Below, piece after piece: positions 8,785 through 31,848 of a stretch of DNA of 42,829 bases. The notes under the pieces are model-generated. The model was given only the letters and a program-made list of their open reading frames with translations, was not told the DNA's origin and searched no databases. Source of the stretch: Okeania sp. SIO2B3 (GTDB taxonomy: Bacteria; Cyanobacteriota; Cyanobacteriia; Cyanobacteriales; Microcoleaceae); assembly GCF_010672525.1 (NCBI RefSeq), contig NZ_JAAHGH010000062.1, forward strand, positions 1-42,829, in the 5' to 3' direction. Within the stretch, counting starts at the first letter, position 1. Each line of letters opens with the position of its first letter. Both the position numbers and the translations under genes were made by a program.

Positions 8785-8900
8785 CTACCGAGCCGTAGCT
8801 CCTCGGCGAGTTGACATCTCACAGGCTGCTGCTACTTTGGCAGTAGTCTCATGCTTGCCTCCATGTCCGTTTAATGTCTCGGATTGCCCACCCGCGACTA
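8750..8900 (-). ncRNA. Predicted omega-RNA scaffold at the tnpB 3' end
   Basis: In TnpB systems a guide RNA is transcribed on the tnpB strand from the end of the gene through the right end, and the guide lies just outside the element. Here that scaffold would cover the last ~100 bases of tnpB and the GC-rich hairpin at 8760-8780. The guide would then read into the sequence just below 8750 (minus-strand AACTCAACTGCC). The placement follows the known rule for the family; no transcript evidence is available and the 5' boundary is a guess. Confidence 0.4.
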
Positions 8901-9987
8901 ATATATTTCTTGCTGCATTTTCGTCTCTATCGTGCTTACTTCCGCAATTTAAACATTCCCACTCACGAATTGATAAATCTAATCTTCCACCCTTAAATCC
9001 ACAACTAGAACAAGTTTGGGATGTGGGTTCCCAACGGCTAATCACCCTAAAATCACGACCGTATTTTTCTGCTTTTCCTTCTAAAAATGTCCTAAATTGC
9101 CTCCAACCTAAATCAGAAATAGCTCTAGATAATTTCCGATTTTTAACAATTCCTGAAACATTCAAATCCTCTAAAACAATTGTTTGGTTTTCACGAATTA
9201 TTTCAGTAGATAATTTATGTAGAAAATCTATTCTTGTATCTTTCAGTTTAGCATGAAATTTAGCTATTTTCAGTCTAGCTTTTTCATGACGATTTGTACC
9301 TTTAGCTTTCTTAGATAATGATTTACTTAACTTTCGATATTTATTGATTCGTTTCTTTAGTGGTTTTGGTGCATCAATTTTTTGACCATTACTCAAAGTA
9401 GCAAAAGTTTTAATTCCTAAATCTATACCTACTGAATTATCAGTTTTAGGTAAGGTTTCAGGCAAAATTTCTACTACAAAACTTAAGAAATATCTGTTAG
9501 CTGAATCTTTGATTATTGTTACTGATGATGGAACATTTGGTAGTTCCCTTGACCAGACAATTTTCAGCTTTCCTATTTTGGCTAAATACACCTTATGCTG
9601 GCCAACTTTAAATCCACCTTTTGTAAACCTTGCAGTCTGTCTTGACTTTCTAGTTTTGAATTTAGGAGGTTTAACAGGTCTGCCCTTTCTCTTACCTTGA
9701 GTTGATTTAAAAAAGTTTTGATAAGCCTGGTTTAAATCATTCAAAGATTGCTGTAGTGGTATAGCAGAAACCTCTGATAACCATTCTCTGTATTCAGTTT
9801 TTTTAGCTTGAGTAATAAACTGTTTTTGTAGCTCAGAGTTAATAGGTTTCTTCTCTCCAGATTTGTACTTTTCCTGACAGCAAGCTAGACTATCATTCCA
9901 GACAACACGGACACAACCAAATAGCCTTGCTAATCGGTATTTTTGTCCCAATGTTGGATATATACGGTACTTAAATCTTGCTTTCAT
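8785..9987 (-). CDS. tnpB: TnpB RNA-guided nuclease (IS200/IS605 OrfB)
   Basis: A 400-residue TnpB, the transposon-encoded ancestor-type relative of Cas12. In this family the protein uses an RNA made from the element's right end to cut DNA next to a transposon-adjacent motif. The RuvC site looks intact: D189 in SVGIDLGIKTFAT, E273 in IVLEDLNVSG and D355 in HDRDENAARN. The zinc ribbon is also intact (CSSCG and CLNCG pairs between the second and third catalytic motifs). The N-terminal part shows the usual WNDSLACCQEKY and QSLNDLNQAYQNFF motifs. The ATG at 9987 gives the family-typical start MKARFKYRIYPT. The length is full and there is no frameshift. It looks recently active, in contrast to the atypical second copy at 16631. 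Confidence 0.93.
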   Translation of the reverse strand: MKARFKYRIYPTLGQKYRLARLFGCVRVVWNDSLACCQEKYKSGEKKPINSELQKQFITQAKKTEYREWLSEVSAIPLQQSLNDLNQAYQNFFKSTQGKRKGRPVKPPKFKTRKSRQTARFTKGGFKVGQHKVYLAKIGKLKIVWSRELPNVPSSVTIIKDSANRYFLSFVVEILPETLPKTDNSVGIDLGIKTFATLSNGQKIDAPKPLKKRINKYRKLSKSLSKKAKGTNRHEKARLKIAKFHAKLKDTRIDFLHKLSTEIIRENQTIVLEDLNVSGIVKNRKLSRAISDLGWRQFRTFLEGKAEKYGRDFRVISRWEPTSQTCSSCGFKGGRLDLSIREWECLNCGSKHDRDENAARNILVAGGQSETLNGHGGKHETTAKVAAACEMSTRRGATAR

Positions 9988-10269: not shown

Positions 10270-11487
10270 ATGATGACTGATAAATTTACATGGCTGCGTC
10301 GTGGCATCAGCGAAATTTTCCCAGATCGACCAGATTCTACAGACCCCGATGAAAACTTATTGCAAAGATTGGCCAAGTCAGACCGTCCTTTACGAGTTAA
10401 ATTAGGAATTGACCCCACAGGGGCAGATATCCATTTAGGTCATAGTATTCCGGTTCGCAAACTCCGAGCATTTCAGGATGCTGGACATACAGCAGTATTA
10501 ATCATCGGAGATTTTACTGCAAGAATTGGCGACCCCACAGGGAAATCTGAAGTCCGAAAACAGTTAACTTCTGAACAGGTGCAGGAAAATGCCAAAACTT
10601 ATTTAGAGCAAGTCCGGCCTATATTAGATTTTGACACGCCAGGGCGCTTAGAAATTCGCTACAACTCAGAATGGCTCTCTAAATTAGACTTGGCAAATAT
10701 TCTGGAACTTTTGGCAACAATGACGGTGGGGCAGATGTTGGCTAAGGAGGGTTTTGCTCTTCGTTATCAGCAGGAAAGCCCTATCTATATCCATGAATTT
10801 CTTTATCCTTTGATGCAAGGTTATGATTCTGTGGCTGTGGATGCTGATGTGGAGTTGGGGGGTACAGACCAAAAGTTTAATATTGCTGTGGGACGAGATT
10901 TACAACGGCATTTTGGTAAAAAAACTCAGTTTGGTCTATTGATGCCAATTTTGTTGGGGACTGATGGGGTACAGAAAATGTCTAAGTCTCTGGGAAATTA
11001 TGTGGGTTTATCGGAAGACTCTCTGAGTATGTATTCTAAGTTGGAAAAAATTCCTGATGACCAGATAGAGCAGTATTTTGAACTATTGACTGATTTATCT
11101 CTTGATGAATTGCCGGAAAATCCTCGTGACAGACAAAAATTGTTGGCCTTGGATATTGCATCTCAGTACCACGGTAGGGAAGCTGCTTTGTTAGCTCAAA
11201 AAACGGCTATGGAAATAGTGCTTGAGGGAGATATGAGTCAAGCTCAAGCAGTACCAGAGTTTTCTTTGGCGACTGTGGAGTTTCCAGCGAAGTTGTTTTA
11301 TGTTGTTAGTGCTAGTGGTTTATGTAAAAGTAGCTCTGAAGCTAGGAAAAAAATTGCCGGAGGAGCTGTTCGTTTGGATGACGACCGTATTTCAGACCAG
11401 AATTTGACTTTTGATTCCCCGGCAGACCTTGATGGTAAGGTTCTACGAGTGGGTAAGAAAAATTTTGTCCGTTTGGTGAAGGATTAA
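10270..11487 (+). CDS. tyrS: Tyrosyl-tRNA synthetase
   Basis: Class I aminoacyl-tRNA synthetase of 405 residues that charges tRNA(Tyr). Visible signatures are the HIGH-type HLGH at 55-58 in [14 protein letters not shown], the tyrosine-binding [21 protein letters not shown] segment, KMSKS at 236-240 and a C-terminal S4 RNA-binding domain (about 345-405: [20 protein letters not shown]). The HLGH/KMSKS spacing and the length fit the TyrZ-like branch common in cyanobacteria. The start could be either of two adjacent ATG codons (10270 or 10273). The stop codon is followed at once by the 151-bp tandem array, so whatever ends this transcript must be inside that array. Confidence 0.96.
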
Positions 11488-12605
11488 TCAATACTTTTGT
11501 TGAGACTCATAGTCTGAAAAAATCAGTAGAGAGAAATTCTGACTCACACCGAGATAAATTCTCTAGGTAGAAATGACTCAAAACTGTAACGTCTTAGTTT
11601 TTTGTTTCATTGCCCAGAAATAGACAACTGAAAATTAATTAATACTTTTGCTCAGGCTCCAAGTCGGAAAAATTCAGTAGAGAGAAATTCTGACTCACAC
11701 CGAGATAAATTCTCTAGGTAGAAATGACTCAAAACTGTAACGTCTTAGTTTTTTGTTTCATTGCCCAGAAATAGACAACTGAAAATTAATTAATACTTTT
11801 GCTCAGGCTCCAAGTCGGAAAAATTCAGTAGACAACAATTCTGACTCACACCGAGAGAAAATCTCTAGGTGGAAATGACTCAAAACTGTAACGTCTTAGT
11901 TTTTTTTGTTTCATTGCTCAGAAATAGACAACTGAAAATTAATTAATACTTTTGCTTAGACTCAAAGTCTGAACAAGTCAGTAGATAAAAATTCTGACTC
12001 ACACCGAGAGAAAATCTCTAGGTGGAAATGACTCAAAACTGTAACGTCTTAGTTTTTTTGTTTCATTGCTCAGAAATAGACAACTGAAAATTAATTAATA
12101 CTTTTGCTTAGACTCAAAGTCTGAACAAGTCAGTAGATAAAAATTCTGACTCACACCGAGAAAAATTCTCTAGGTGGAAATAACTCAAAACTACAACGTC
12201 TTAGTTTTTTGTTTGAATGCCGAAAAATAGACAACTGAGAATTAATCAATACTTTTGCTGAGACTCACAGTCGGAAAAATTCAGTAGACAACAATTCTGA
12301 CTCACACCGAGAAAAATTCTCTAGGTGGAAATAACTCAAAACTACAACGTCTTAGTTTTTTGTTTGAATGCCGAAAAATAGACAACTGAGAATTAATCAA
12401 TACTTTTGCTGAGACTCACAGTCGGAAAAATTCAGTAGACAACAATTCTGACTCACACTGAGAGAAAGTCTTGAGGTGTAAATGACTCAAAACTACAACG
12501 TCTTAGTTTTTTGTTTGAATACCGAAAAATAGACAACTGAGAATTAATCAATACTTTTGCTGAGACTCACAGTCTGAACAAAAATGTAGACGATTGAGAA
12601 TTGTG
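11488..12605. repeat. Tandem array, about 7.4 copies of a ~151-bp unit, between tyrS and pyrF
   Basis: The landmark ATACTTTTG recurs at 11491, 11642, 11793, 11946, 12098, 12249, 12400 and 12551, giving periods of 151, 151, 153, 152, 151, 151 and 151 bp. The eighth copy is cut short about 55 bp before pyrF. Every unit carries the same small stems. An AGACT-cat-AGTCT hairpin varies its loop (CAT, CAA, CAC) and in units 2-3 becomes GGCT/AGTC, held by a G-U pair. A GAGA...TCTC stem follows (ACCGAG to TCTCTAGG). Then comes AAAACT, about 10 nt, AGTTTT and a T-run. No open frame persists through the units, so this is a non-coding array; adjacent units are most alike, as expected from unequal crossing-over. 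Confidence 0.93.
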
Positions 12606-16630: not shown

Positions 16631-17857
16631 ATGAAGCTAGTTGAACGTCATGTTATCAGCAAATCACATGATTTGTGGTCACAAGCTGACCACAAGGCTT
16701 TTTTGTCAAAAAATCTGTTTAACTTAGCCAATTACCATTATCGTCAATATTTCTTTTCTGATCGAAAGAAATTAAATTTTAATGAACTTTATCACAAGGT
16801 ATCTAAAAGTGACGATTATCAAGCTTTACCGACCAAAGTAAGTAAGCAAATAATCAGAAGATTAGACTCAGCTTGGAATAGCTATTTTGCAGCTTTAAGA
16901 GAGTGGAAAAAACAGCCAAACAAATTTTTAGGAAAACCAAAAATCCCCAAATATAAACATAAAACAAAAGGCCGAAATATTCTGCCCTATCCTAATGAAT
17001 CAATTTACAAAAAAAACTTAAAAAAAGGAATTTGTCATCTGTCGATGAGTGAAATAAAAATTCCCACTTCACAGACAGAAATAATAGAAGCCAGAATCAT
17101 CCCCAAAAGTAGCTGTTATCTTATAGAAATAGTCTATGAAAAAGCGGAGGAAATTACAGAAAATCAACAAATAGCAGGAGTAGATTTAGGCGTAAATAAT
17201 TTAATAGCTGTAACGACAAATCAAACAGGAGTATCACCTTTTTTGATAAAAGGCAGACCATTAAAAGCCATTAACACATTTTATAATAAACAGCGCTCTT
17301 CTTTACAATCTCAATTAAATAATCAAAATCATTCTCATCGGTTAAAAAAATTAACTCACAAACGAAATTGTCGAGTAGAAAACTATCTCCATACAGCAAG
17401 TAAAAGAGTAATAGATTGGTGTGTCAAACATGAAATAGGCCAATTAATTATTGGGCATAATCAGACTTGGAAACAAGAGGTAAAATTAGGTAAAAAGAAT
17501 AATCAACAATTTGTGAATATCCCTCATTATAAGTTAATAGAGATATTAACATATAAAGCCCAATTAAGAGGGATAAAAGTAATAATTACAGAAGAATCTT
17601 ATACATCTCAGTCGAGCTGTTTAGATGGGGATGATTTACCAAAATATGGAGATAAAAAACCGAAATTTAGTGGAAGAAGAGTAACAAGAGGGTTGTATAA
17701 AACCAGGGAAAATAAATTATTAAATGCAGATGTCAATGGCTCGTTGAATATTATTAAAAAAGTAATTCCTGATGTCTTTGACCAAGGAATAAAGGGTTTG
17801 CCGTTTAACCCTGTGGTGGTCGATCCACTACGAGCAACTAAGCTTTCAGATTTTTGA
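16631..17857 (+). CDS. Atypical TnpB-like protein with rearranged or lost RuvC motif and no zinc ribbon
   Basis: A 408-residue IS200/IS605 OrfB-type protein, distantly related to the one at 8785. RuvC motif I is present (D185 in IAGVDLGVNNLIAVTTN) and so is motif III (D367 in LLNADVNGSLNIIKK). At the motif II position the usual LED is replaced by LIIGHNQTW (around 272-279), with no glutamate. A glutamate pair occurs at 321-322 in ITEESYTSQSS, where ordinary TnpB has the segment before the zinc ribbon. The two CxxC pairs of the ribbon are absent. Either the catalytic glutamate has moved, as reported for some TnpB groups, or the protein cannot cut DNA. There is no frameshift, so the reading frame is under selection or the element is young. 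Confidence 0.85.
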   Translation: MKLVERHVISKSHDLWSQADHKAFLSKNLFNLANYHYRQYFFSDRKKLNFNELYHKVSKSDDYQALPTKVSKQIIRRLDSAWNSYFAALREWKKQPNKFLGKPKIPKYKHKTKGRNILPYPNESIYKKNLKKGICHLSMSEIKIPTSQTEIIEARIIPKSSCYLIEIVYEKAEEITENQQIAGVDLGVNNLIAVTTNQTGVSPFLIKGRPLKAINTFYNKQRSSLQSQLNNQNHSHRLKKLTHKRNCRVENYLHTASKRVIDWCVKHEIGQLIIGHNQTWKQEVKLGKKNNQQFVNIPHYKLIEILTYKAQLRGIKVIITEESYTSQSSCLDGDDLPKYGDKKPKFSGRRVTRGLYKTRENKLLNADVNGSLNIIKKVIPDVFDQGIKGLPFNPVVVDPLRATKLSDF

Positions 17858-19891: not shown

Positions 19892-20355
19892 GAATAAAAT
19901 TTTTAACGAATTAAGCATAAATAGGAAGGAAAAACTTTTCTTCGAGGGTATTTTTTCTTTACTTGAGGGGAAAAGAGGAAATGAATAAGGTTGACTAATT
20001 TTTTGACTTTACATTCCACTTTCTATAGGTGCTAACTTTAGGGAGTAAGGTGGAAATTTTTCTACTTTTTAAAGTTGCTTATATTCAGTTAGGGTAAAAT
20101 TTCTAACTAAATACTTACTTTTCTAAAGGGAGAAATAGGGTGACGCTACCCCCGCTATAAATTTCATTTTAGCGGTTGAAAATTAGTGGTGATTAACAAT
20201 CTCCGACTAATTGTAATTTCTGACTTTCGGTCCAAACACACTTCTGACTTCTTGAACTTCCATACTTTGTAAGGATGTTGTCTGCAACTTTGTATATCCA
20301 GAAATTAACAAACTACTGTATATCTTTGACTATTAAATCTAGAGAAAAAAACAAT

Positions 20356-22434
20356 ATGATTGACAAAATAGAAATTGAAAATTTTATCCAAGATTTGGCA
20401 AAAGTAGCAAAAGTTCGTGTTGAGGTTGCTGAGAGTTTAGGAAAAATTGCACAAATATTAGAAACAGCAGAATTTGCAGGTAAAGAAACTTCTGGTGAGT
20501 TTGGTTTAGACAGAGAAATAGAAGATATGAAAGCTTCTAGTAAGAATCTCAGAGAGGGTGTGTTTAGATTGATGGTTTTGGGAGATATGAAACGAGGTAA
20601 AAGCACTTTTTTAAATGCTTTAATTGGTGAAAATATTCTTCCCAGTGATGTTAATCCTTGCACTGCTTTACTAACTGTTTTGCGCTACGGAGTAGAGAAA
20701 AAAGTGACGATTTATTTTAATGATGGGAAAAATCCTGAAGATTTAGATTTTAAAAGTTTTAAGGGTAATTATACAATTGACCCCGCAGAAGCTAAAAAAT
20801 TAGAAAAGGAGAAAAAACAAGCTTTTCCTGATGTTGATTATGCTGTGGTTGAATATCCTTTACCGCTATTAGAAAAAGGAGTTGAAATTGTTGATACTCC
20901 AGGATTGAATGATACGGAAGCTCGAAATGAATTATCCCTGGGATATATAAATAGTTGTCATGCAATTTTATTTGTGATGAGGGCAACTCAACCTTGTACT
21001 TTGGGAGAGCGTCGCTATTTAGAAAATTATATTAAAGGTAGAGGTTTGAGTGTATTTTTTCTAATTAATGGTTCAGACCAAGTTAGAGAAAGTTTAATAG
21101 ACCCAGACGATCTGGAAGAATTAGCAGAAGCATCCGCAAAAATTAGAAAAGTTTTTCATGCTAACTTGGCTGAATATTGCATAGTTGATGGTCAAGATAT
21201 TTATCCAGAAAGGGTATTTGAAATATCTTCTTTACCTGCTTTGCGACGGCGGATAAAAGATAGTTTTGTTTCTCTGGAAGGAACAGGTTTTCCAGAATTT
21301 ATGGGTGCTTTGAATACTTTTTTAACTAAAGAAAGAGCAGCTCAAGAATTTCGACAAGCTCAGACTTTAGCTAGTCAAGCTAATAGTCGGATGAAAGAGG
21401 CGATCGCTAGAAGAAAACCTTTATTAGATGAGGATGTAAATGAGTTAAAAGTTAAGATTAATTCTGTGGAACCGGAGTTTAAAAAACTTACAGAGATTCG
21501 CGACCAATTTCAAGAGGAGATTAGGACTGTTCGGGATAAAAAAGCTAAAATTGTGGCTGATTCTTTTCGCTCTTATATCTTAAATTTAGGCGATACTTTC
21601 GAGACTGACTTTTTGCGTTATCAGCCAGATTTAAACTTTATGGATTTTCTGAATAAAGAGAAACGAGAAACATTTGAAACAGAATTAAAAAAAGCCTTTG
21701 AACAATATATTAATGATAAATTATCTGCCTGGACAATAACTGTGGAAAATGAAATGGATGCAGCATTTTTACAACTTTCAAGAAGAGCTGCACATTATGG
21801 TGCCTCTTACAATACAGTGACAGATAAAATTACTGAAAAAATTACTGGAAAAAAAGTTAAATCTTTTGGCAATTCTGCTACAGAAGATGACTCTCCGGCT
21901 TGGGCAAAATGGGCAATGGGATTATTTTCTTTAGCTAGAGGAAATATTGCTGGTATGGCAATGGCAGGAGTTGGTTTTGACTGGAAAAATATTTTATTAA
22001 ACTTAGTTACTGTAGCTGGAATAGGAACAATTATTGCTACTATTAGTGGCATAACTTTAGGTCCTATTGGTTTAGCATTATTAGGCTTAGGAGTAGGGGC
22101 AATGCAGGCAGACCAAGCCAGAAAAAAATTAGTTCAAGTAACTAAAAAAGAACTGGTCAAACATTTGCCTCAAGTTGCTCAAGAACAGTGGCAACCAGTT
22201 TATGATGCGATTAAAGAATGCTTTGATATTTATGAGGGAGAAGTGAGTGAAAGGATAGATGATGATATTCAATCTCGCAAAAGAGAATTAGATAATTTAC
22301 TGAAGCAAAAAGAGGAACGAGAAATTAATCGCGGTGCTGAGTTAGCTAGGTTTCAGCAGTTAGAAATTGATGTATCGTCTGAGTATAAAAATATTGAAAC
22401 TGTCTGCGATAATTTTCTCAAAGCAGTGGCTTAA
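20356..22434 (+). CDS. Bacterial dynamin-like GTPase (large, C-terminal membrane segment)
   Basis: About 692 residues from the ATG at 20356; an upstream in-frame ATG at 20275 would add 27 poorly convincing residues. It has a G1 P-loop GDMKRGKST, G2 threonine in NPCTALLTVL, a G3 DTPGLND and a G4-like FFLINGSDQ. A long helical stalk region (ARRKPLLDEDVNELKVKINS and on) follows. Near the end is a hydrophobic block (about residues 520-600 from this start: WKNILLNLVTVAGIGTIIA and GPIGLALLGLGVGA), the expected membrane paddle or insertion. A final coiled coil (ERIDDDIQSRKRELDNLLKQ) ends the protein. Bacterial dynamins remodel or guard the inner membrane, and some act in phage tolerance. A second, smaller dynamin follows on the same strand, and bacterial dynamins often work as unequal pairs (inference). 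Confidence 0.9.
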   Translation: MIDKIEIENFIQDLAKVAKVRVEVAESLGKIAQILETAEFAGKETSGEFGLDREIEDMKASSKNLREGVFRLMVLGDMKRGKSTFLNALIGENILPSDVNPCTALLTVLRYGVEKKVTIYFNDGKNPEDLDFKSFKGNYTIDPAEAKKLEKEKKQAFPDVDYAVVEYPLPLLEKGVEIVDTPGLNDTEARNELSLGYINSCHAILFVMRATQPCTLGERRYLENYIKGRGLSVFFLINGSDQVRESLIDPDDLEELAEASAKIRKVFHANLAEYCIVDGQDIYPERVFEISSLPALRRRIKDSFVSLEGTGFPEFMGALNTFLTKERAAQEFRQAQTLASQANSRMKEAIARRKPLLDEDVNELKVKINSVEPEFKKLTEIRDQFQEEIRTVRDKKAKIVADSFRSYILNLGDTFETDFLRYQPDLNFMDFLNKEKRETFETELKKAFEQYINDKLSAWTITVENEMDAAFLQLSRRAAHYGASYNTVTDKITEKITGKKVKSFGNSATEDDSPAWAKWAMGLFSLARGNIAGMAMAGVGFDWKNILLNLVTVAGIGTIIATISGITLGPIGLALLGLGVGAMQADQARKKLVQVTKKELVKHLPQVAQEQWQPVYDAIKECFDIYEGEVSERIDDDIQSRKRELDNLLKQKEEREINRGAELARFQQLEIDVSSEYKNIETVCDNFLKAVA

Positions 22435-22918: not shown

Positions 22919-23910
22919 CAATAGTTAGTAGTTAGGAGCTATGAATTTATGTGATTTTTTTAAGCTTGGAAAAATTTGCTTTAGAATTGCTGAGTAACAA
23001 CTGTCAGCAAATCGATAATTTTGTTTGGATAAACAGCTATATTCTGTATGTATAGGGTTTTTCAAGTTACTGAGGTACATTTGTTTTTCCTCTTTTCTAC
23101 TCCCTATTCGCTAAAAAAGTAGTTTTATAGGTATATTTAGACAAGACATAGGGTTACTAATAGTCAATCGTTAGTAGTTAGGAGCTATGAATTTATGTGA
23201 TTTTTTTAAGCTTGGAAAAATTTGCTTTAGAATTGCTGAGTAACAACTGTCAGCAAATCGATAATTTTGTTTGGATAAACAGCTATATTCTTTGTGTATA
23301 GGGTTTTTCAAGTTATTGAGGTAAATTTGTTTTTCTTCTTTTCTATTCCCTACTCCCTATTCCCTATTCCCTATTCCCTACTCTCTACTCCCTACTCGCT
23401 AAAAAAGTAGTTTTATAGGTATATTTAGACAAGACATAGGGTTACTAATAGTCAATAGTTAGTAGTTAGGAGCTATGAATTTATGTGATTTTTTTAAGCT
23501 TGGAAAAAATTGTTCTATAATTGCTGAGTAACAACTGCCTGAAATCGATAATTTTGTTTGGATAAACAGCTATATTCTGTATGTATAGGGTTTTTCAAGT
23601 TACTGAGGTACAGTTGTTTTTCCTTTTTTCTACTCCCTACTCCCTAAAAAAAACGGTTTTATAGGTATATTTTAACAAGACATAGGGTTACTAATAGTCA
23701 ATAGTCAATAGTTAGTAGTTAGAAGCTATGAATTTATGTGATTTTTTTAAGCTTGGAAAAAATTGTTCTATAATTGCTGAGTAACAACTGCCTGAAATCG
23801 ATAATTTTGTTTGGATAAACAGCTATATTCTGTATGTATAGGGTTTTTCAAGTTACTGAGGTACAGTTGTTTTTCCTTTTTTCTACTCCCTACTCCCTAC
23901 TCCGTTTGAT
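22919..23910. repeat. Four tandem ~250-bp repeats between the two dynamin genes
   Basis: The landmark AGCTATGAATTTATGTG recurs at 22937, 23183, 23471 and 23724 (spacings 246, 288, 253). The longer second unit is due to extra heptamers (CCCTATT / CCCTACT) at about 23346-23395. Copies 1 and 2 hold a perfect 7-bp stem, TTGCTGA-10 nt-TCAGCAA, that copies 3 and 4 have lost (CTGCCTGAAATC), so the array has two subtypes. The last copy is truncated and ends only ~15 bp before the start codon of the second dynamin gene, which must take its 5' leader from the repeat. Confidence 0.9.
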
Positions 23911-23918
23911 TAAAAAAA

Positions 23919-25595
23919 ATGCAACAACAAGAAAATTATCATAATCTAATTAATTATTTTAATTCTGCTCTAGGAATGTTAGAACTTGAGCCAGAGTCAC
24001 AACTAAGAAAAGATGTATTTTTTATTTGTGAATATCTCAAAAATCCTGATTTTAAAATTGCTGTTTTTGCTCCATTTAATTATGGCAAATCTACTTTACT
24101 AAATGCTTTTTTAGGTCAACGTACATTACCTATTGATTTGATTCCTACTACTGGAGCTGCAATTTCTATCAAATATGGCAGAGAGTTACAGACTAAAATT
24201 AATCTGAAAGATGGAAGTCAAATTTGTGAAACTGGTACAGAAATTCTCAAACAATATGCAGTGCTAGATAATAACCGTCGAATGCGAGATGATGTGACTT
24301 CAGTCGAAGTTTATTGCCCTCATTCTTTCTTGAAAAGAGGAGTAGAATTTTTAGATTTACCAGGAACAAATGACAGGGTCGCTCAAGATATTTTGGTGCA
24401 GGATAAATTATTAACTGCCGATTTAGTAGTACAGGTTTTAGATGCCAGAAATTTGATGACTTTAGGAGAACGAGAAAATCTCAGAGATTGGTTGTGGGAA
24501 AGAGGTATTAATACAGTAATTTTTGTTGTTAATTTTATGAATTTACTAGCGCCAGACGAACAAAAAGAAGTTGACAATAGAATGCGGTTTGTGGCAGAAA
24601 GTTTTCGTTCGGAGCTACCAAATAATATTAGTAATTTATATCGAGTTGATGCTTTACCTGCTTTGCGGGGTCGGTTAAAAGGTGATATTTCTGTGGCACA
24701 AACAACGGGTTTAGCAATTTTTGAATCTGCTGTACAAAATATTGTTGAAACTCATGGGAAAAAGATAGATATTCAATTGCCAAGAATACAGGCGATCGCT
24801 TCTCAGTTATGTCAAGTCATAAAAGCTAGTGCTAAGGAGGTAACTAAAGAGTTAATTGCTATCCAAGAGCAGAAAAGTGAAAAATTTGAAATTCAAAAGC
24901 GGGCAGAAAAATTAATTAAACAAGGCTTTCAAAAAAGTAGTTCAAATTTCCAAAGTTGGTTATATTTAACTAAACTTTTAGAGCGCCATCAATTTGAATT
25001 AGCTATAGTTTTGGAACAAAGAACTTTTAATATTTGGGAGTCAGAAAAATTTAGACCGGAAGTGCTTAAATATAAACAAGAAATTACTGAATGGATAGAT
25101 AAAGCTTGTGAGTTTTTTCAACAAGAAGAACCAGCAGAATTAATTATCACATTCCCTGAAGCTCCTAAAGTTTTTTTGCCATCCCCACCCCCATCAGAAA
25201 CCAAAAAATCAGGAGGGGTAAAAAATATAGCGATCGCCACTGGAATAGGTTGGTTATTAGGAGGTCCAATGGGTGCTGCAGTTGCTGGTGGTGCGACCTA
25301 TTTTTTGAGCGATAATAAACAGAATAAATCACAAAATTTAGATAGTTATCAGCAGCAGGTAAAACAAGCTTATGCTAATGCGGCTAGAGATTATTTAAGT
25401 CGTTTTAGTGCTGTAGCTTTAAAAGCAGTTGAGGAATATGAAGAAAAGGCAGAAAAAGTGATTAAGGTTCCTATTAGTCAGCAGTCACCAGAGGCAATTA
25501 AGTTAAGGAATAAATTACAGTTATTGAATAATTTGTCGGCAGAAATAAATCAAGAATTGGAATTTTTAGGTAAGCATTCAGCCGTCAGCTATTAG
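23919..25595 (+). CDS. Second bacterial dynamin-like GTPase, C-terminus supplied by a mobile element
   Basis: A 558-residue dynamin-family protein, shorter than its neighbour. G1 is AVFAPFNYGKST (G56-K57-S58), in which the first glycine of GxxxxGKS is alanine. G3 is DLPGTND (146-152), with leucine in place of the usual T. A helical stalk region follows, then a short Gly/Ala-rich membrane-prone segment (about 427-463: IATGIGWLLGGPMGAAVAGG) after a Pro-rich PSPPPSE linker. The last eight residues (GKHSAVSY) and the stop lie inside a family A element that begins at 25570, so the original C-terminus has been replaced. The start ATG at 23919 follows an A-run with no Shine-Dalgarno. It probably works with the first dynamin (inference). 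Confidence 0.88.
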   Translation: MQQQENYHNLINYFNSALGMLELEPESQLRKDVFFICEYLKNPDFKIAVFAPFNYGKSTLLNAFLGQRTLPIDLIPTTGAAISIKYGRELQTKINLKDGSQICETGTEILKQYAVLDNNRRMRDDVTSVEVYCPHSFLKRGVEFLDLPGTNDRVAQDILVQDKLLTADLVVQVLDARNLMTLGERENLRDWLWERGINTVIFVVNFMNLLAPDEQKEVDNRMRFVAESFRSELPNNISNLYRVDALPALRGRLKGDISVAQTTGLAIFESAVQNIVETHGKKIDIQLPRIQAIASQLCQVIKASAKEVTKELIAIQEQKSEKFEIQKRAEKLIKQGFQKSSSNFQSWLYLTKLLERHQFELAIVLEQRTFNIWESEKFRPEVLKYKQEITEWIDKACEFFQQEEPAELIITFPEAPKVFLPSPPPSETKKSGGVKNIAIATGIGWLLGGPMGAAVAGGATYFLSDNKQNKSQNLDSYQQQVKQAYANAARDYLSRFSAVALKAVEEYEEKAEKVIKVPISQQSPEAIKLRNKLQLLNNLSAEINQELEFLGKHSAVSY

Positions 25596-25821: not shown

Positions 25822-26924
25822 ATTTTGAGAAAGGTAAAAGCAACCTTTGAAATTGAGTTTGAATAAAAATTGCTGCCAAAGTCCCTTTATGTTTTGATGA
25901 AAATTTAGGTAACAACTCTATGTCAATATATAGATACAGCAGTCTTATTTGAATTGTGAGAGATTGTAGATTTTTATGGAAAAGGGAACAGGGAACAGGT
26001 AAGAAAGAAAAACTTTATTCTGGCAGTTAAACCAACTTTATATATACCTTATATATTAGGAGAAATAGTAAACCATTCTTGTCAAAGGTAGACCTCCTGT
26101 AAAGTCTTTTTCTCATGCTTATTATTCGTAATACCAAGCGTGATAAATTTTTGTTACAAATGGTAGGGACGCCCTTATGCAACGTCCGTACGAAAGAAGG
26201 AAGAGGGAAGAAGGAAGAAGGGATAAATATTTTAAAAAATGGAAAAACGATATAAATAACTATCTAAAATGAACTATACTAGCTATTTTTAAGCATATTC
26301 GATCAAGGTCTACTTTTTTGTAGCATTCTTTTTTCAAATTGGTATAAGGTACACCCATAGCGGGCAAGATGCCCGCACTTACATTCATTTAATTGTTAAT
26401 ATCTGTACTTCTTATGCGAGGAATTTGCTGTATCAAAAACTTAAAACTTAGGCAACGAAAGATTTTTCTTTCTTTCTTTTTCCTTCTCCATACCACAAAA
26501 TTGTCAATCTATCAATCTGCCAAAAAATTAGGCGAGGAAAATTAGTCATTCATGGTAAAAGAACGGAAGAGTCTTTGCCTCTAAAAACAACGAAATTATA
26601 GGTATTTGGAGCTTTATTTTTTAAAAAAGCTATAAAAACCCCTTGGATATTAATATTATTTAGAGTATCACAAAATCTAGCTTAAGTGCTAAAAATATTG
26701 AAACCTCGTTAAGTTTATCAGAAAGTTTCTCTGATTTTTTGTCATCAACTCCTGACAAAATTAAAAATTTTTGAACTAAAAGACTAAAATTTATAACTAA
26801 AACTTAACTATAAACCTAAATTTGTGAGATATGGCAATTTTTGTAGCGATCGCTTAATAAGCAAGACAGTCGCTACAAAATATAATGACTAATTATTCAG
26901 ACGTAACAACCCATAATTTCAAAG
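25822..26924. repeat. Gene-free region upstream of the REase-like gene
   Basis: No gene seen. A segment at about 25935-26010 (CAGTCTTATTTGAATTGTGA, then GGGAACAGG runs) also occurs at about 15085-15150. Two overlapping family F-type ends lie between about 26060 and 26346 (ATACCAAGCGTGATAAAT; TTTTTTCAAATTGGTAT). A GACGCCC...GCAACGTC palindromic repeat is inside, at about 26168-26187, and GCGGGCAAGATGCCCGC at 26358-26374. Confidence 0.55.
26839..26880 (+). promoter_or_regulatory. Perfect 11-bp inverted repeat upstream of the REase-like gene
   Basis: TTTTGTAGCGA (26839-26849) and TCGCTACAAAA (26870-26880) are perfect reverse complements with a 20-nt spacer that contains part of a HIP1 site. It sits 45 bp before the ATG at 26925. 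It may be an operator, an RNA stem in the leader, or a terminator for upstream transcription; there is no way to choose from sequence alone. Confidence 0.5.
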
Positions 26925-28016
26925 ATGAAAGAAATAGATATAACCAAAACCCTCCAATACTTAGCTACTGGTTTAGTGGAGTGGGAAAAGTTAGATTTGG
27001 ATAAGCGAAATGAAATTCCAAAAGCTCTCCGTATTGGAATGTCAAAATTGTCAGCAATCTCAATTTTAGAAGGAGAAACTGCACCGACAAATTTACCAGA
27101 ATTTTTTCAGTGGGCAACTCAACCGATTAAGTCTTGGAAGCCAGCAGAAAAAGTAGAATTTATTCCTGAAGATGCAACTTTCATAGATGATGGTTTAGTG
27201 TCTGACTTTGCTAAAGATTTAGCACTTACTGGTAAAAATTCTATTGCTCAAGTGCAAGAATATATTTTGAAAAAAATCAAAGATTATTGTACAGATAATT
27301 CATTAGAAGACTCTTATCGTGATTTCAGAAATCTAATTATTACCACACCAGTTATACATCGAATAGAATTAGAAGACTATTTAGATTCCCGCACATTCAG
27401 ACCTTTAAATGATTACTTCAAAAATCAAGAAATCTACAAACCATTAACAAATTTGGATGAGTATGATCAATACCATCTTTGTCCGAGATGTAAGTATATA
27501 GAAAGGCAACGCAGGGATGGTAGTTATAGCTGTAAAAATGCTTTTTGTCAGCGAGTTGTTGCTGAAAATCCAAATAAATTTCCTCGTTTATCTCCCATTC
27601 CTAAAAAAGAAGTTGACCAATGGTTAGCTGTGAGTTATGGAGTTTATTTGTATGGCACAATTCCGGGAATTTGGGAGGTAAAATTAGCTGAAGATTTAAC
27701 AAATTTAGGAGCAAAAGTTACCTTATGGCCTCATGTTGATTGGTATGATTTACTGGTGGAATTGCCTGGAAATATTAAATGGGCAATTGATGTTAAAGAT
27801 TGGTCTTATATTACTCCAGAACGTGTGAAAGAAGTTAGGGTTCAGTCGGAAGCGACAGAGACATTTATTGTGATTGCTGATGCTAGAGAAAGTTTGCGAA
27901 TTCCTGTCATTCGCAGGCAAAAAGCATATAGGGATGCTTTGGGGAAATTGCAACTAAAATTAAGTACTGAAATTTTTGAAGCAGCGAAAAAGATATTAAA
28001 AGTTACTCAACAATAA
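26925..28016 (+). CDS. Restriction-endonuclease-fold protein, probable pPIWI_RE-associated REase
   Basis: A 363-residue protein. The N-terminal half is helical and unrecognised. In the middle is a zinc-finger-like module (C186-P-R-C189, then C203 and C208: YSCKNAFCQR). The C-terminal third reads as a PD-(D/E)xK nuclease: PGIWEVKLAEDLTNLGAKV, then WYDLLVEL (D275) and WAIDVKDW (D289-x-K291), the order expected for the active site. I associate this with the REase subunit of pPIWI_RE systems, a prokaryotic Argonaute-related defence module, because of its layout (zinc finger, then E...G..V.LWP..D.YDL..WAIDVKD). Next to it on the same strand is a fragment of the pPIWI RNase H domain. The gene is intact, but its 3' end has been copied into a tandem array. 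A family search would settle it. Confidence 0.72.
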   Translation: MKEIDITKTLQYLATGLVEWEKLDLDKRNEIPKALRIGMSKLSAISILEGETAPTNLPEFFQWATQPIKSWKPAEKVEFIPEDATFIDDGLVSDFAKDLALTGKNSIAQVQEYILKKIKDYCTDNSLEDSYRDFRNLIITTPVIHRIELEDYLDSRTFRPLNDYFKNQEIYKPLTNLDEYDQYHLCPRCKYIERQRRDGSYSCKNAFCQRVVAENPNKFPRLSPIPKKEVDQWLAVSYGVYLYGTIPGIWEVKLAEDLTNLGAKVTLWPHVDWYDLLVELPGNIKWAIDVKDWSYITPERVKEVRVQSEATETFIVIADARESLRIPVIRRQKAYRDALGKLQLKLSTEIFEAAKKILKVTQQ

Positions 28017-28590
28017 AGCTTATGAATTCCTGTCATTCGCAAGCAAAAAGTATATAGGGATGCTTTGGGAAAATTACAACTAAAATTAAGAGCTGAAATT
28101 TTTGAACCAGGGAAAAAGAGATGAAAAGGTACTCAATAATCAACCTGACAAATTTCTAATTTCTCCAGGGAAAATAAATATAGGGATGCTTTGGGAAAAT
28201 TACAACTAAAATTAAGTGCTGAAATTTTTGAACCAGGGAAAAAGAGATGAAAAGGTACTCAATAATCAAACTGACAAATTTCTACTTTCTCCAGGCAAAA
28301 AACATATAGGGATACTTGAGGGAAATTACAACTAAAATTAAGTACTGAAATTTTTGAAGTAGGGAAAAAGAGATGAAAAGGTACTCAATAATCAACCTTA
28401 AGAGTTCCTGTCATTCCCAGGGAAAAAAATATAGGGATGCTTTGGGAAAATTACAACTAAAATTAAGTGCTGAAATTTTTGAACCAGGGAAAAAGAGATG
28501 AAAAGGTACTCAATAATCAACCTGACAAATTTCTACTTTCTCCAGGCAAAAAACATATAGGGATACTTGAGGGAAATTACAACATCTCAG
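27900..28590 (+). repeat. 126-bp tandem array derived from the 3' end of the REase-like gene
   Basis: The landmark ATATAGGG lies at 27926 (inside the gene), then at 28052, 28178, 28304, 28429 and 28555: spacings of 126, 126, 126, 125 and 126 bp, which is 42 codons. The units are copies of the gene's last codons (IPVIR.QK.YRDALGKLQLKL), but each carries stops (for example the TGA in AAGAGATGA). Units 2-3 and 4-5 form an alternating pair (GGGATGCTTTGGG versus GGGATACTTGAGG), so a ~252-bp dimer was duplicated. The array ends at about 28585, where the pPIWI remnant begins. A 65-codon open frame at 28467-28664 is only the array read in frame. Confidence 0.92.
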
Positions 28591-29364
28591 GAATTCGAGG
28601 GGAACAACGGGAACAAACGAAAATGGGTGTCATCTTGGGAAATTTACAAAATTTTATTGACTGAAAAATGGGACCCCGCTTCTTATATACAAGAACTGCC
28701 GGAAAATTTAATACTATAAATAGAAAAAGAGCAGCAGAATTTAATAAATGATTTTGTTAGTAAAGCTTTAAAAGATTGTTTATATACAAAAATTGGAGAT
28801 AATTCTCAACCCCATGTCTTATTTATGTTAGAAGCTCAAAATTCTAGGGGTATGTTGAAATGGTTAACTAATCCTAATTTACCTTCAGGAACATTGCCTC
28901 AAGAAATTAAGCGAAATTTACGACGACAGGCAGACTGTCAAAGGTTATCAATTGTCAGAATTCGTACTTCTAAAAATCAAGAAGTTCCTGTCTGGTCTGT
29001 GGAAGATAAACCGGGAAGTCGAACCAGTGGAGTATTTCGTTGGGATAATGTTTGTGATGAAAATAATCAATCTATCTACTTCAGTTTAAGACAACTATTA
29101 AATACAGAACAAGGTGTTCTAAAAATCAAAGAATCTCGACTTGAGGCAGGCAAAAAAACAGCCGGAAATCCTCCACTTCTAGAAATAGCAATTGTTTATT
29201 CTGTCTTAGAATATGATACTTTAACAACTTGTCTCCATCGCCTCAGAAATAGATGGGCTTATTTTGGCGGAACTACTGCTTTACCTTTCCCATTTATCTT
29301 TGCCCAAAAAGCAAAAGAATATGCTGTTAGTGTCAAAGATTCTATAGAATCAATAGAGTCATAA
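28588..29364 (+). pseudogene. Remnant of pPIWI_RE (Argonaute-related) gene, RNase H-domain C-terminus
   Basis: One frame reads continuously from about 28588 to the stop at 29362-29364, broken only by TAA at 28717-28719. Before the stop it gives NKRKWVSSWEIYKILLTEKW and onward; after it, NDFVSKALKD, then PHVLFMLEAQNSRGMLKWL, PQEIKRNLRRQADCQRLSIV, a GVFRWDN stretch, and finally TCLHRLRNRWAYFGGTTALP and FPFIFAQKAKEYAVSV. The hDAQN-like LEAQNSRG and the ALPFPFIFAQKAKEY ending resemble the C-terminal end of pPIWI_RE RNase H domains (from memory). The intact part from the ATG at 28825 is 179 residues. All upstream domains (X, Y, MID) and the start are missing, so no functional Argonaute-like protein can be made. 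Confidence 0.65.
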
Positions 29365-30817: not shown

Positions 30818-31848
30818 AATATGTTCATCAAAACTTTTCTTTGAAATATACTCTCATCAGAATAGATAAACAGGATATTATGGAAGAAGGAAGAAGGAAG
30901 AAGGAAGAAGGAAGAGGGAAAAGGGAAGAAGGAAGAAGGAAAAGTCTGGCGTTGTCTGAGTTTTAATATCAAGTTTCCAGACCCAACCTGAGAAATAATG
31001 ATTCATGAACCTATCCCACTATTTTTAACAAACTTATTTCTTTGAGTAAAATGTGTTTAAAAAGCTTAATTTTTGGTTTTTAATTCTCAAAATATTTATG
31101 GTTTTTAGCAAAAATATTATTAGTGGGATAGGTTCATTATTAATTGCTGATAGCTGACTACTAATAGCTGTTTGCGCAGCAGTCCGCAGGAAATGCTTAC
31201 CGAATAATTAAGGTAAAAATCCTCTCCTTTAAAGGGGAAACAAGAAAATATTTTCCTTTTATTCAATCCTCTTCCTTTTAGGGAGAGGTAATTATCAATT
31301 ATCCATTATCAATTATCAATTATTGAAAAATTTCCTGTAGATATTCACCCTTGGTTCTACACAAACGATACCAGTGGACATGATATAAATTTATAATTTT
31401 CTCTATTTCTTGTTTCTCTTTCCCTTTGTTTGATCAAAGCTATGCTTTTTTCACTGGTAGATTTTAAGTGTAGAAAACAGTTGCCGTTCAATTGGGTTAA
31501 AAATCACACATTCAGTCATGCTATCTGCAATTATTTCTGTTTTATACCAAGCGTGAAAAAAGAATGCTATATTTAAGTGACACTTCAATTATTAAGTAAT
31601 TAACACAAACTGAATATTTTTTTTGATAATTAGCACGCCAGTTATTGTTAATTATTCTTATTTTTACCTCTCCCTGTACGGACGCCCTTATGCAACGTCC
31701 CTACTCACTCCCCTATTTCCCCTCCTGGGAGGGGTTAGGGGTGGGTCCCCCGCAATGCGAAAATGTAGCAAACATTTATCAAATTGGTATTAATCCCCTA
31801 AAAATTAAATCTAAAATCTGATTCAATTTCATAATTTAATTTCATAGA
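30818..31848. repeat. Repeat-filled gap between the pentapeptide gene and the binding-protein gene
   Basis: No gene seen. In order: a GGAAGAA heptamer tract (about 30883-30945, seven or more copies); a 133-bp inverted-repeat element (family E, 31005-31137); a family A right end (GCAGCAGTCCGCAGGAAATG, to 31199) without a visible left end; a family B repeat (31199-31325); and a family F-type element (31544-31790) that carries the GACGCCC...GCAACGTCC palindromic repeat and a GGGGTTAGGGGTGGG tract as in family D. Confidence 0.6.
31005..31137. mobile_element. Family E miniature element, perfect 17-bp terminal inverted repeats
   Basis: ATGAACCTATCCCACTA at the left and TAGTGGGATAGGTTCAT at the right are perfect 17-bp reverse complements around a 99-bp AT-rich centre without a gene. 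I see no clear target duplication. Only one copy occurs in the window. It is directly followed by the family A half-element. Confidence 0.75.

Follow-up and report, generated by a model that had tools for sequence, protein, structure and literature searches.

A three-gene pPIWI_RE island, probably broken recently, at a fixed chromosomal site of the cyanobacterium Okeania

The closest described counterpart of the locus reported here is the three-gene pPIWI_RE island, a system that is already known but little tested. Burroughs, Iyer and Aravind (2013; PMC3702460) describe the island as a triad in which the order REase, DinG helicase, pPIWI_RE is strictly conserved, and predict that it restricts invading DNA under the guidance of RNA-DNA hybrids. 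According to this prediction, the pPIWI_RE protein of an intact system would sense RNA-DNA hybrids of invading DNA, the helicase would open and the REase would cut. PsPIWI-RE of Pseudomonas stutzeri (Huang and colleagues, PMC10991935) is also among the closest known systems. In the literature examined on PIWI-RE, Okeania defence and defence-system decay, including abstracts or passages of PMC3702460, PMC10991935 and PMC9950141, no report of the locus was met.

Intact operons are present in four other cyanobacteria (loci L019, L020, L021 and L022), in the order REase, helicase, pPIWI_RE and with adjacent or overlapping genes. Their REases contain 438–440 residues, the second proteins 1,152–1,177 and the third proteins 936–955. 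A Pfam scan of L019 and L021 reveals pPIWI_RE_Z in the second gene and pPIWI_RE_X, MID and RNase H domains in the third. No Pfam helicase domain was detected in the second gene of these two loci at E ≤ 0.01; its assignment as a DinG-type helicase is based on domain Z, the gene order and the published description (PMC3702460). The profiles PF18154 and PF13032 were run against 388 genomes of the order; the former matched 89 of them and the latter 100, 97 of these above the cut-off. The survey comprises 103 REase places, 89 with a same-strand RNase H match at most 12.5 kb downstream and 14 without. For 85 of the 89 pairs the two lie 4,535–6,803 bp apart. The remaining four have distances of 10,770, 4,197, 2,272 and 611 bp, and the last and shortest of these values belongs to the locus under study.

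This locus lies in a stretch of 42,829 nucleotides from the marine cyanobacterium Okeania sp. SIO2B3, hereafter the window, and its features are collected in Table 1. An original prediction, made from the nucleotide sequence, had placed there a 363-codon nuclease gene and a downstream frame with one stop codon, and had read the two as a decayed pPIWI_RE module. Both frames are found where it put them and, judged from matches to PF18154 and PF13032 that exceed the curated cut-offs of both families, the REase and the PIWI remnant belong to a pPIWI_RE system. Like the island described in PMC3702460 (PADLOC models PprRE and PprPIWI), the locus starts with a REase that contains domain Y and a zinc ribbon and ends with an RNase H on the same strand. 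Unlike that island, it contains no helicase and no X or MID domain, its RNase H is truncated and carries a stop, and the 3′ end of its REase gene is repeated in tandem. The proteins of the four intact relatives are 43–49% (REase) and 45–50% (PIWI tail) identical to those of the window, but these loci have complete second and third genes and a REase with an N-terminal extension.

Table 1. Coordinates of the features of the window locus and of comparable wrecks in other genomes
Feature	Position	Strand	Evidence
Upstream ATG matching the in-frame start of sister genome G002	26887..26924	+	Sequence versus L011/L024
pPIWI_RE island REase subunit gene	26925..28016	+	Pfam PF18154 and PF18156, PADLOC PprRE, 32-row alignment, AlphaFold2
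REase layout: domain Y; four-Cys zinc-ribbon-like module; PD-(D/E)xK nuclease	aa 10-145; C186, C189, C203, C208; aa 248-359		
126-bp tandem array, 5.4 copies	27899..28583	+	Repeat analysis, unit alignment, REase matches with stops
Junction zone, truncated array unit meets pPIWI_RE	28584..28611	+	Spacing, tblastn, unit alignment
pPIWI_RE gene remnant, C-terminal ~250 codons	28612..29364	+	PF13032, tblastn of intact proteins, alignment
179-aa open frame, part of the remnant 3′ of the stop	28825..29364	+	ORF list, PF13032
In-place pPIWI_RE wrecks, three other cyanobacterial genomes	L097:1509-3018, L100:207-2789, L076:4595-8755		

The REase frame is open throughout its 363 residues. It scores 69 bits against pPIWI_RE_REase (PF18154; curated cut-off 26.1), with the D...DxK residues of that family present, and 59.1 bits against pPIWI_RE_Y (PF18156; curated cut-off 26.7), and it is matched by the PADLOC model PprRE. 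All three elements that characterize the REase of the three-gene island are found, namely domain Y, the zinc ribbon and the PD-(D/E)xK nuclease. An alignment of 32 REase rows contains 15 invariant columns, all of which are kept by the window, including C186, C189, C208, E251, D272, D275, D289 and K291, while C203 is conserved in at least 90% of the rows. The four-Cys module and the D275, D289-x-K291 layout had both been recognized in the original prediction. From the family pattern, E251, D275, D289 and K291 are predicted to form the active site. An AlphaFold2 model of the REase has a mean pLDDT of 85.7, and a fold search with this model gave no matches at E ≤ 0.001. The top match below significance is DdmD (8u0w_A; E 0.0083, TMq 0.31), followed at lower ranks by several structures which we take to be PD-(D/E)xK nucleases; the search agrees with a nuclease fold but adds little. 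Sequence searches against solved structures gave no matches at E ≤ 0.1 for either the REase or the 179-residue frame.

The nuclease gene had been called intact, which holds for its catalytic core and open frame but not for its N-terminus. An extension of approximately 75 residues, present in 20 other members of the clade to which the protein belongs, is absent from the window REase, where it was lost or never gained; this absence had not been anticipated. The extension may be HTH-like (LexA-like), as suggested by a reading of its sequence and by the HTH additions that Burroughs and colleagues describe (PMC3702460). In two extended REases (L019 and L021), Pfam recognized no HTH at E ≤ 0.01. The window ATG that matches the in-frame start of sister genome G002 stands 38 bp ahead of the REase ATG and is therefore out of frame, and by this sequence comparison the REase gene is altered at its 5′ end relative to G002.

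A phylogenetic tree was calculated from the window REase together with 49 rows, taken from a total of 62 REase rows. Six of the 13 omitted rows are second copies of loci already in the tree or also left out, and the other seven were judged, without a test, to be partial or divergent. The tree places the window REase in a clade of 21 rows with a support of 100/100 but does not resolve its position inside that clade. Its branch length is 0.75, compared to 0.025–0.36 for the other clade members, and it departs at 20 of the 94 positions that are invariant across the 20 other members, whereas in a leave-one-out control these members depart at 0–6 of 94–100 such positions. In terms of its sequence, the window REase is thus diverged beyond the members of its clade, yet it retains the family-wide core.

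The downstream remnant corresponds to residues ~678–940 of the intact pPIWI_RE proteins. The stretch 28612–29328 matches RNaseH_pPIWI_RE (PF13032) at profile positions 43–287 of 288 with 107.4 bits; it contains a single TAA at 28717–28719, the one stop that had been noted originally, and shows no frameshift over 250 codons. The RNase H domain is incomplete, with the first 42 of the 288 profile positions absent and the stop inside. When taken alone, the 179-residue frame scores 86.4 bits (cut-off 25), in a match that begins at profile position 99. The Argonaute-like gene had been thought to be lost save for its last ~250 codons, and this view is confirmed by tblastn with the intact proteins, in which the pPIWI_RE match begins only at residue ~678, and by the negative result with the domain X profile. 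The same tblastn search found no helicase at the locus. The window contains neither a DinG-type helicase with domain Z as a second gene nor, apart from the RNase H part, the third gene with its X, MID and RNase H domains. What is missing amounts to the helicase and roughly the first two thirds of pPIWI_RE, while the order of the remaining genes, REase first and pPIWI_RE last on the same strand, is that of the island. Profiles of domain X and of domain Z (PF18155) matched none of the five genus genomes, while each was positive in six of six control genomes. A translocation of the helicase or of the pPIWI_RE N-terminus to another site was considered and rejected, since the two profiles find neither in the window's genome. 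Each of the REase and RNase H families has a single match (E ≤ 0.001) in this 10.0-Mb genome, which is the present locus.

The gap between the REase gene and the PIWI remnant is mostly filled by the 126-bp array, which had escaped the original prediction. Unit 1 of the array consists of the REase gene's own last 38 codons and stop, and units 2–6 are diverged copies of this 3′ end, carrying stops. The divergence from unit 1 amounts to 13.5–20.6% for units 2–5; in pairs, units 1 and 2 differ by 13.5% and units 2 and 5 by 4.8%, and by a reading of the alignment units 4 and 6 are identical over their first 56 bp. Unit 6 is truncated and runs into the pPIWI_RE remnant, at a junction that leaves the locus approximately 4.8 kb shorter than in the four intact relatives. 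With array and junction intervening, the two parts of the locus are not adjacent or overlapping so as to be read as one operon. Because the last unit is cut by the junction, the deletion would be younger than the array.

The flanks of the locus consist of a dynamin-like gene on one side and a pentapeptide-repeat gene on the other, and the latter is found in all five genus genomes. In sister genome G004 the dynamin-like gene on the left is followed by REase codons 1–107 and then by the pentapeptide flank. G002 retains REase codons 1 to ~52, with a left intergenic stretch and a right flank that agree with the window; its contig piece contains no dynamin gene. In G003 only a piece of pPIWI_RE is left (residues ~634–885, with several stops), and this genome gave no REase match. 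Neither family is matched in G001, where the contig ends before the left flank. Four of the five genomes, the window's included, hold remnants, each differently broken, and the fifth holds none; none of the five contains a complete pPIWI_RE system, and no breakpoint common to two of them was seen. A blastn match starting at 28611 had suggested that G003 shares the PIWI breakpoint of the window, which was dropped as the G003 piece extends upstream to residue ~634. The surviving pieces come from different parts of one operon, so that this operon was probably present in the common ancestor and lost separately in the lineages.

Several other features of the region were observed. Two consecutive dynamin-like GTPase genes (20275–22434 and 23919–25595) lie upstream of the locus, and the PADLOC models LeoA and LeoBC match both. 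Two dispersed repeats of approximately 90 bp each are found in 30874–31100; a 1.2-kb query containing them gave 62–78 matches per genome in the five genus genomes, and among the matches listed most lie within the repeats. IS605 OrfB/TnpB-like genes of two different kinds are present at 8785–9987 on the reverse strand and at 16631–17857 on the forward strand. The window further contains a 151-bp unit in 7.2 copies (11483–12581), a 253-bp unit in 2.1 copies (23384–23899) and many arrays of 7-bp units spread over its length.

The locus is very probably a recently broken three-gene pPIWI_RE island, originally composed of REase, DinG-type helicase and pPIWI_RE, at a fixed chromosomal site in the cyanobacterium Okeania. 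Its history may be reconstructed as follows. The operon would have been under selection in early Okeania; slippage or unequal exchange would first have turned the REase 3′ end into a tandem array, and a deletion that began within this array and reached into pPIWI_RE would later have removed the helicase and most of pPIWI_RE. A REase that has lost its sensor and helicase would be expected to have no targeted activity. As the remnants at the site are broken differently in close relatives, the window locus is most likely an ordinary, recent loss of a defence system.

The single stop in the PIWI tail points to a recent breakage. A tail of 250 codons with one stop and without a frameshift is compatible with a neutral change of about 1–2% per site, and over 187 aligned codons G003 shows six stops in the window's frame. 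Of the positions that do not vary among the four intact relatives, the PIWI tail retains 82 of 103 and the REase 109 of 163, which indicates that the tail has not yet fallen behind; 75 of those in the tail are covered in G003 as well, and of these the window retains 60 and G003 52. The open frame of the REase would be due mainly to the recency of the break. Simulations that assume certain mutation and indel ratios leave the frame of an unselected REase open in 20–36% of the runs at 1% neutral change per site, in 4–14% at 2% and in 1–5% at 3%. It counts against this reading that, with a neutral change of 3% or more, an unselected REase would be open in at most 5% of the runs.

As an alternative, the REase might have been kept by selection after the loss of its partners, acting alone or with other cell proteins, for instance as an unguided nuclease on damaged or foreign DNA. 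The original prediction had left the choice between recent wreckage and such another role; the differing remnants in the genus and the single stop favour wreckage, and a new role is the less likely reading. The comparison with G004 contains seven synonymous and six non-synonymous changes (Fisher p 0.008, from rounded counts) and yields a dS of 0.11, a dN of 0.024 and a dN/dS of 0.22, a value that spans REase codons 1–107 alone and includes the G004 branch. These codons were under purifying selection after the split from this sister genome; selection acted on the REase after the split, either within the system or on the REase alone, which is in line with both readings. The value resembles that of the adjoining dynamin gene (0.20); for other neighbours the corresponding values are 0.26 (solute-binding protein), 0.08 (ArsC-like) and 0.06 (pentapeptide). 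Comparison of the window with G002 gives a REase dN/dS of 0.23 (44 and 47 codons), and that of G004 with G002 0.40–0.43 (44–47 codons).

A lone, selected REase would also be in line with the open 363-codon frame and its complete set of invariant residues, with the occurrence in genome G011 of a REase without a helicase or PIWI match alongside, from which it follows that a lone REase can occur, and with the old-looking array behind the gene. The diverged array behind an open REase suggests an old disturbance of the 3′ end and would be consistent with a REase that was retained for a longer time in the absence of its partners; the divergence of units 2–5 from unit 1 is at least as large as the distance to G004 (6.6% in the upstream intergenic stretch, and the dS given above). 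Owing to exchange between the units, however, the age of the array is unsafe as a clock, and the verdict was not rested on it. Furthermore, the body of the REase is lost in G004 and G002 and no trace of it is found in G003 and G001, so that the genus shares no such role. The open frame is unsurprising given a recent break, and the window protein, with its long branch, departs from its clade at many more invariant positions than any other member does. A retained function of the lone REase is thus considered unlikely. Its more specific form, in which the nuclease subunit outlived guide protein and helicase and was kept by selection as a free-standing enzyme following the tandem multiplication of its 3′ end, seems quite unlikely, and nothing requires a new role of the lone nuclease.

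The break could also be an artefact of assembly, with a real locus that is intact. Tandem arrays such as the one at the locus are a known cause of assembly collapse, and the genome is in 249 contigs. However, the profiles of domains X and Z were negative in this 99.85%-complete genome with working controls, junction and stop both lie within one contig, and the same site is broken in other ways in three sister genomes and without trace in the fourth, so that an assembly error is very improbable. That the REase and the C-terminal RNase H part of 179 residues form a minimal working two-gene system is hardly conceivable and was rejected: both frames are open and above the family cut-offs, and open C-terminal PIWI fragments are known from other genomes of the survey, but the match of the 179-residue frame covers nothing of MID or X, in G003 the PIWI piece is interrupted by several stops and accompanied by no REase, no comparable spacing occurs among the 89 pairs, and the two parts were nowhere seen paired intact.

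The window is not alone in having the system broken through an internal deletion, as follows from in-place wrecks in three other cyanobacterial genomes, L097 (G337), L100 (G360) and L076 (G330). Like the window, these loci have internal deletions, with parts of the first and the last gene left in their original order. Unlike in the window, the REase itself is cut in L097 and L100, and part of the helicase remains: L097 contains REase residues 1–98, helicase 8–308 and PIWI 803–944, and L100 contains REase 1–134, helicase 53–612 and PIWI 748–950. L076 differs from the window by a 340-residue REase followed by a 639-residue ORF that matches approximately the first 600 helicase residues. L097 and L100 have a downstream gene in common, beginning MSNTSNFREAIREA, and may therefore represent the same site in two species.

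In nine of the 14 REase places without a downstream RNase H, the contig ends no more than 5 kb away on the downstream side. A helicase match accompanies the unpaired REase in G293, G300, G317, G372 and G383. In G053 further ORFs that are helicase-like in size alone stand behind the REase, in G008 and G016 a long ORF extends behind it up to the contig end, and in G258 the region stops at the contig end. The remaining places, apart from G011, are G318:C72, G108, G344 and G098. As partners or genes were examined for eight of the 14, these numbers give no orphan rate. In G011 (L026:8805-10367) a pPIWI_RE-type REase of 375 residues is followed by a 143-residue ORF and then by genes on the opposite strand; the 12-kb piece gave no tblastn match to helicase or PIWI, and this REase is likely an orphan. 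G383 (L080:2784-8405) has a REase and a full helicase, followed by a match to only the first 280–320 residues of PIWI, with an RNase H match on another contig, and in G300 (L075:1529-6479) REase and full helicase are followed by only the ~170 first residues; the pPIWI_RE genes of both are possibly interrupted. Two 5-kb pieces without a REase match, L096 and L098, contain an open frame of 124 codons (2533-2904 and 2531-2902, respectively) that matches only the last 66–89 positions of RNaseH_pPIWI_RE, and these frames either are fragments or encode a distinct small protein.

The locus forms part of a natural series, consisting of one genus, one chromosomal site and five genomes, of which four carry different wrecks and one shows no trace, while intact operons exist in the same family and order. 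The series is an indication that in-place deletions can remove a pPIWI_RE island repeatedly after it has been under selection for some time, and it lends itself to the question of whether the nuclease subunit does no harm on its own. If it were true that selection keeps the lone REase, the nuclease would be able to act without the guide protein.
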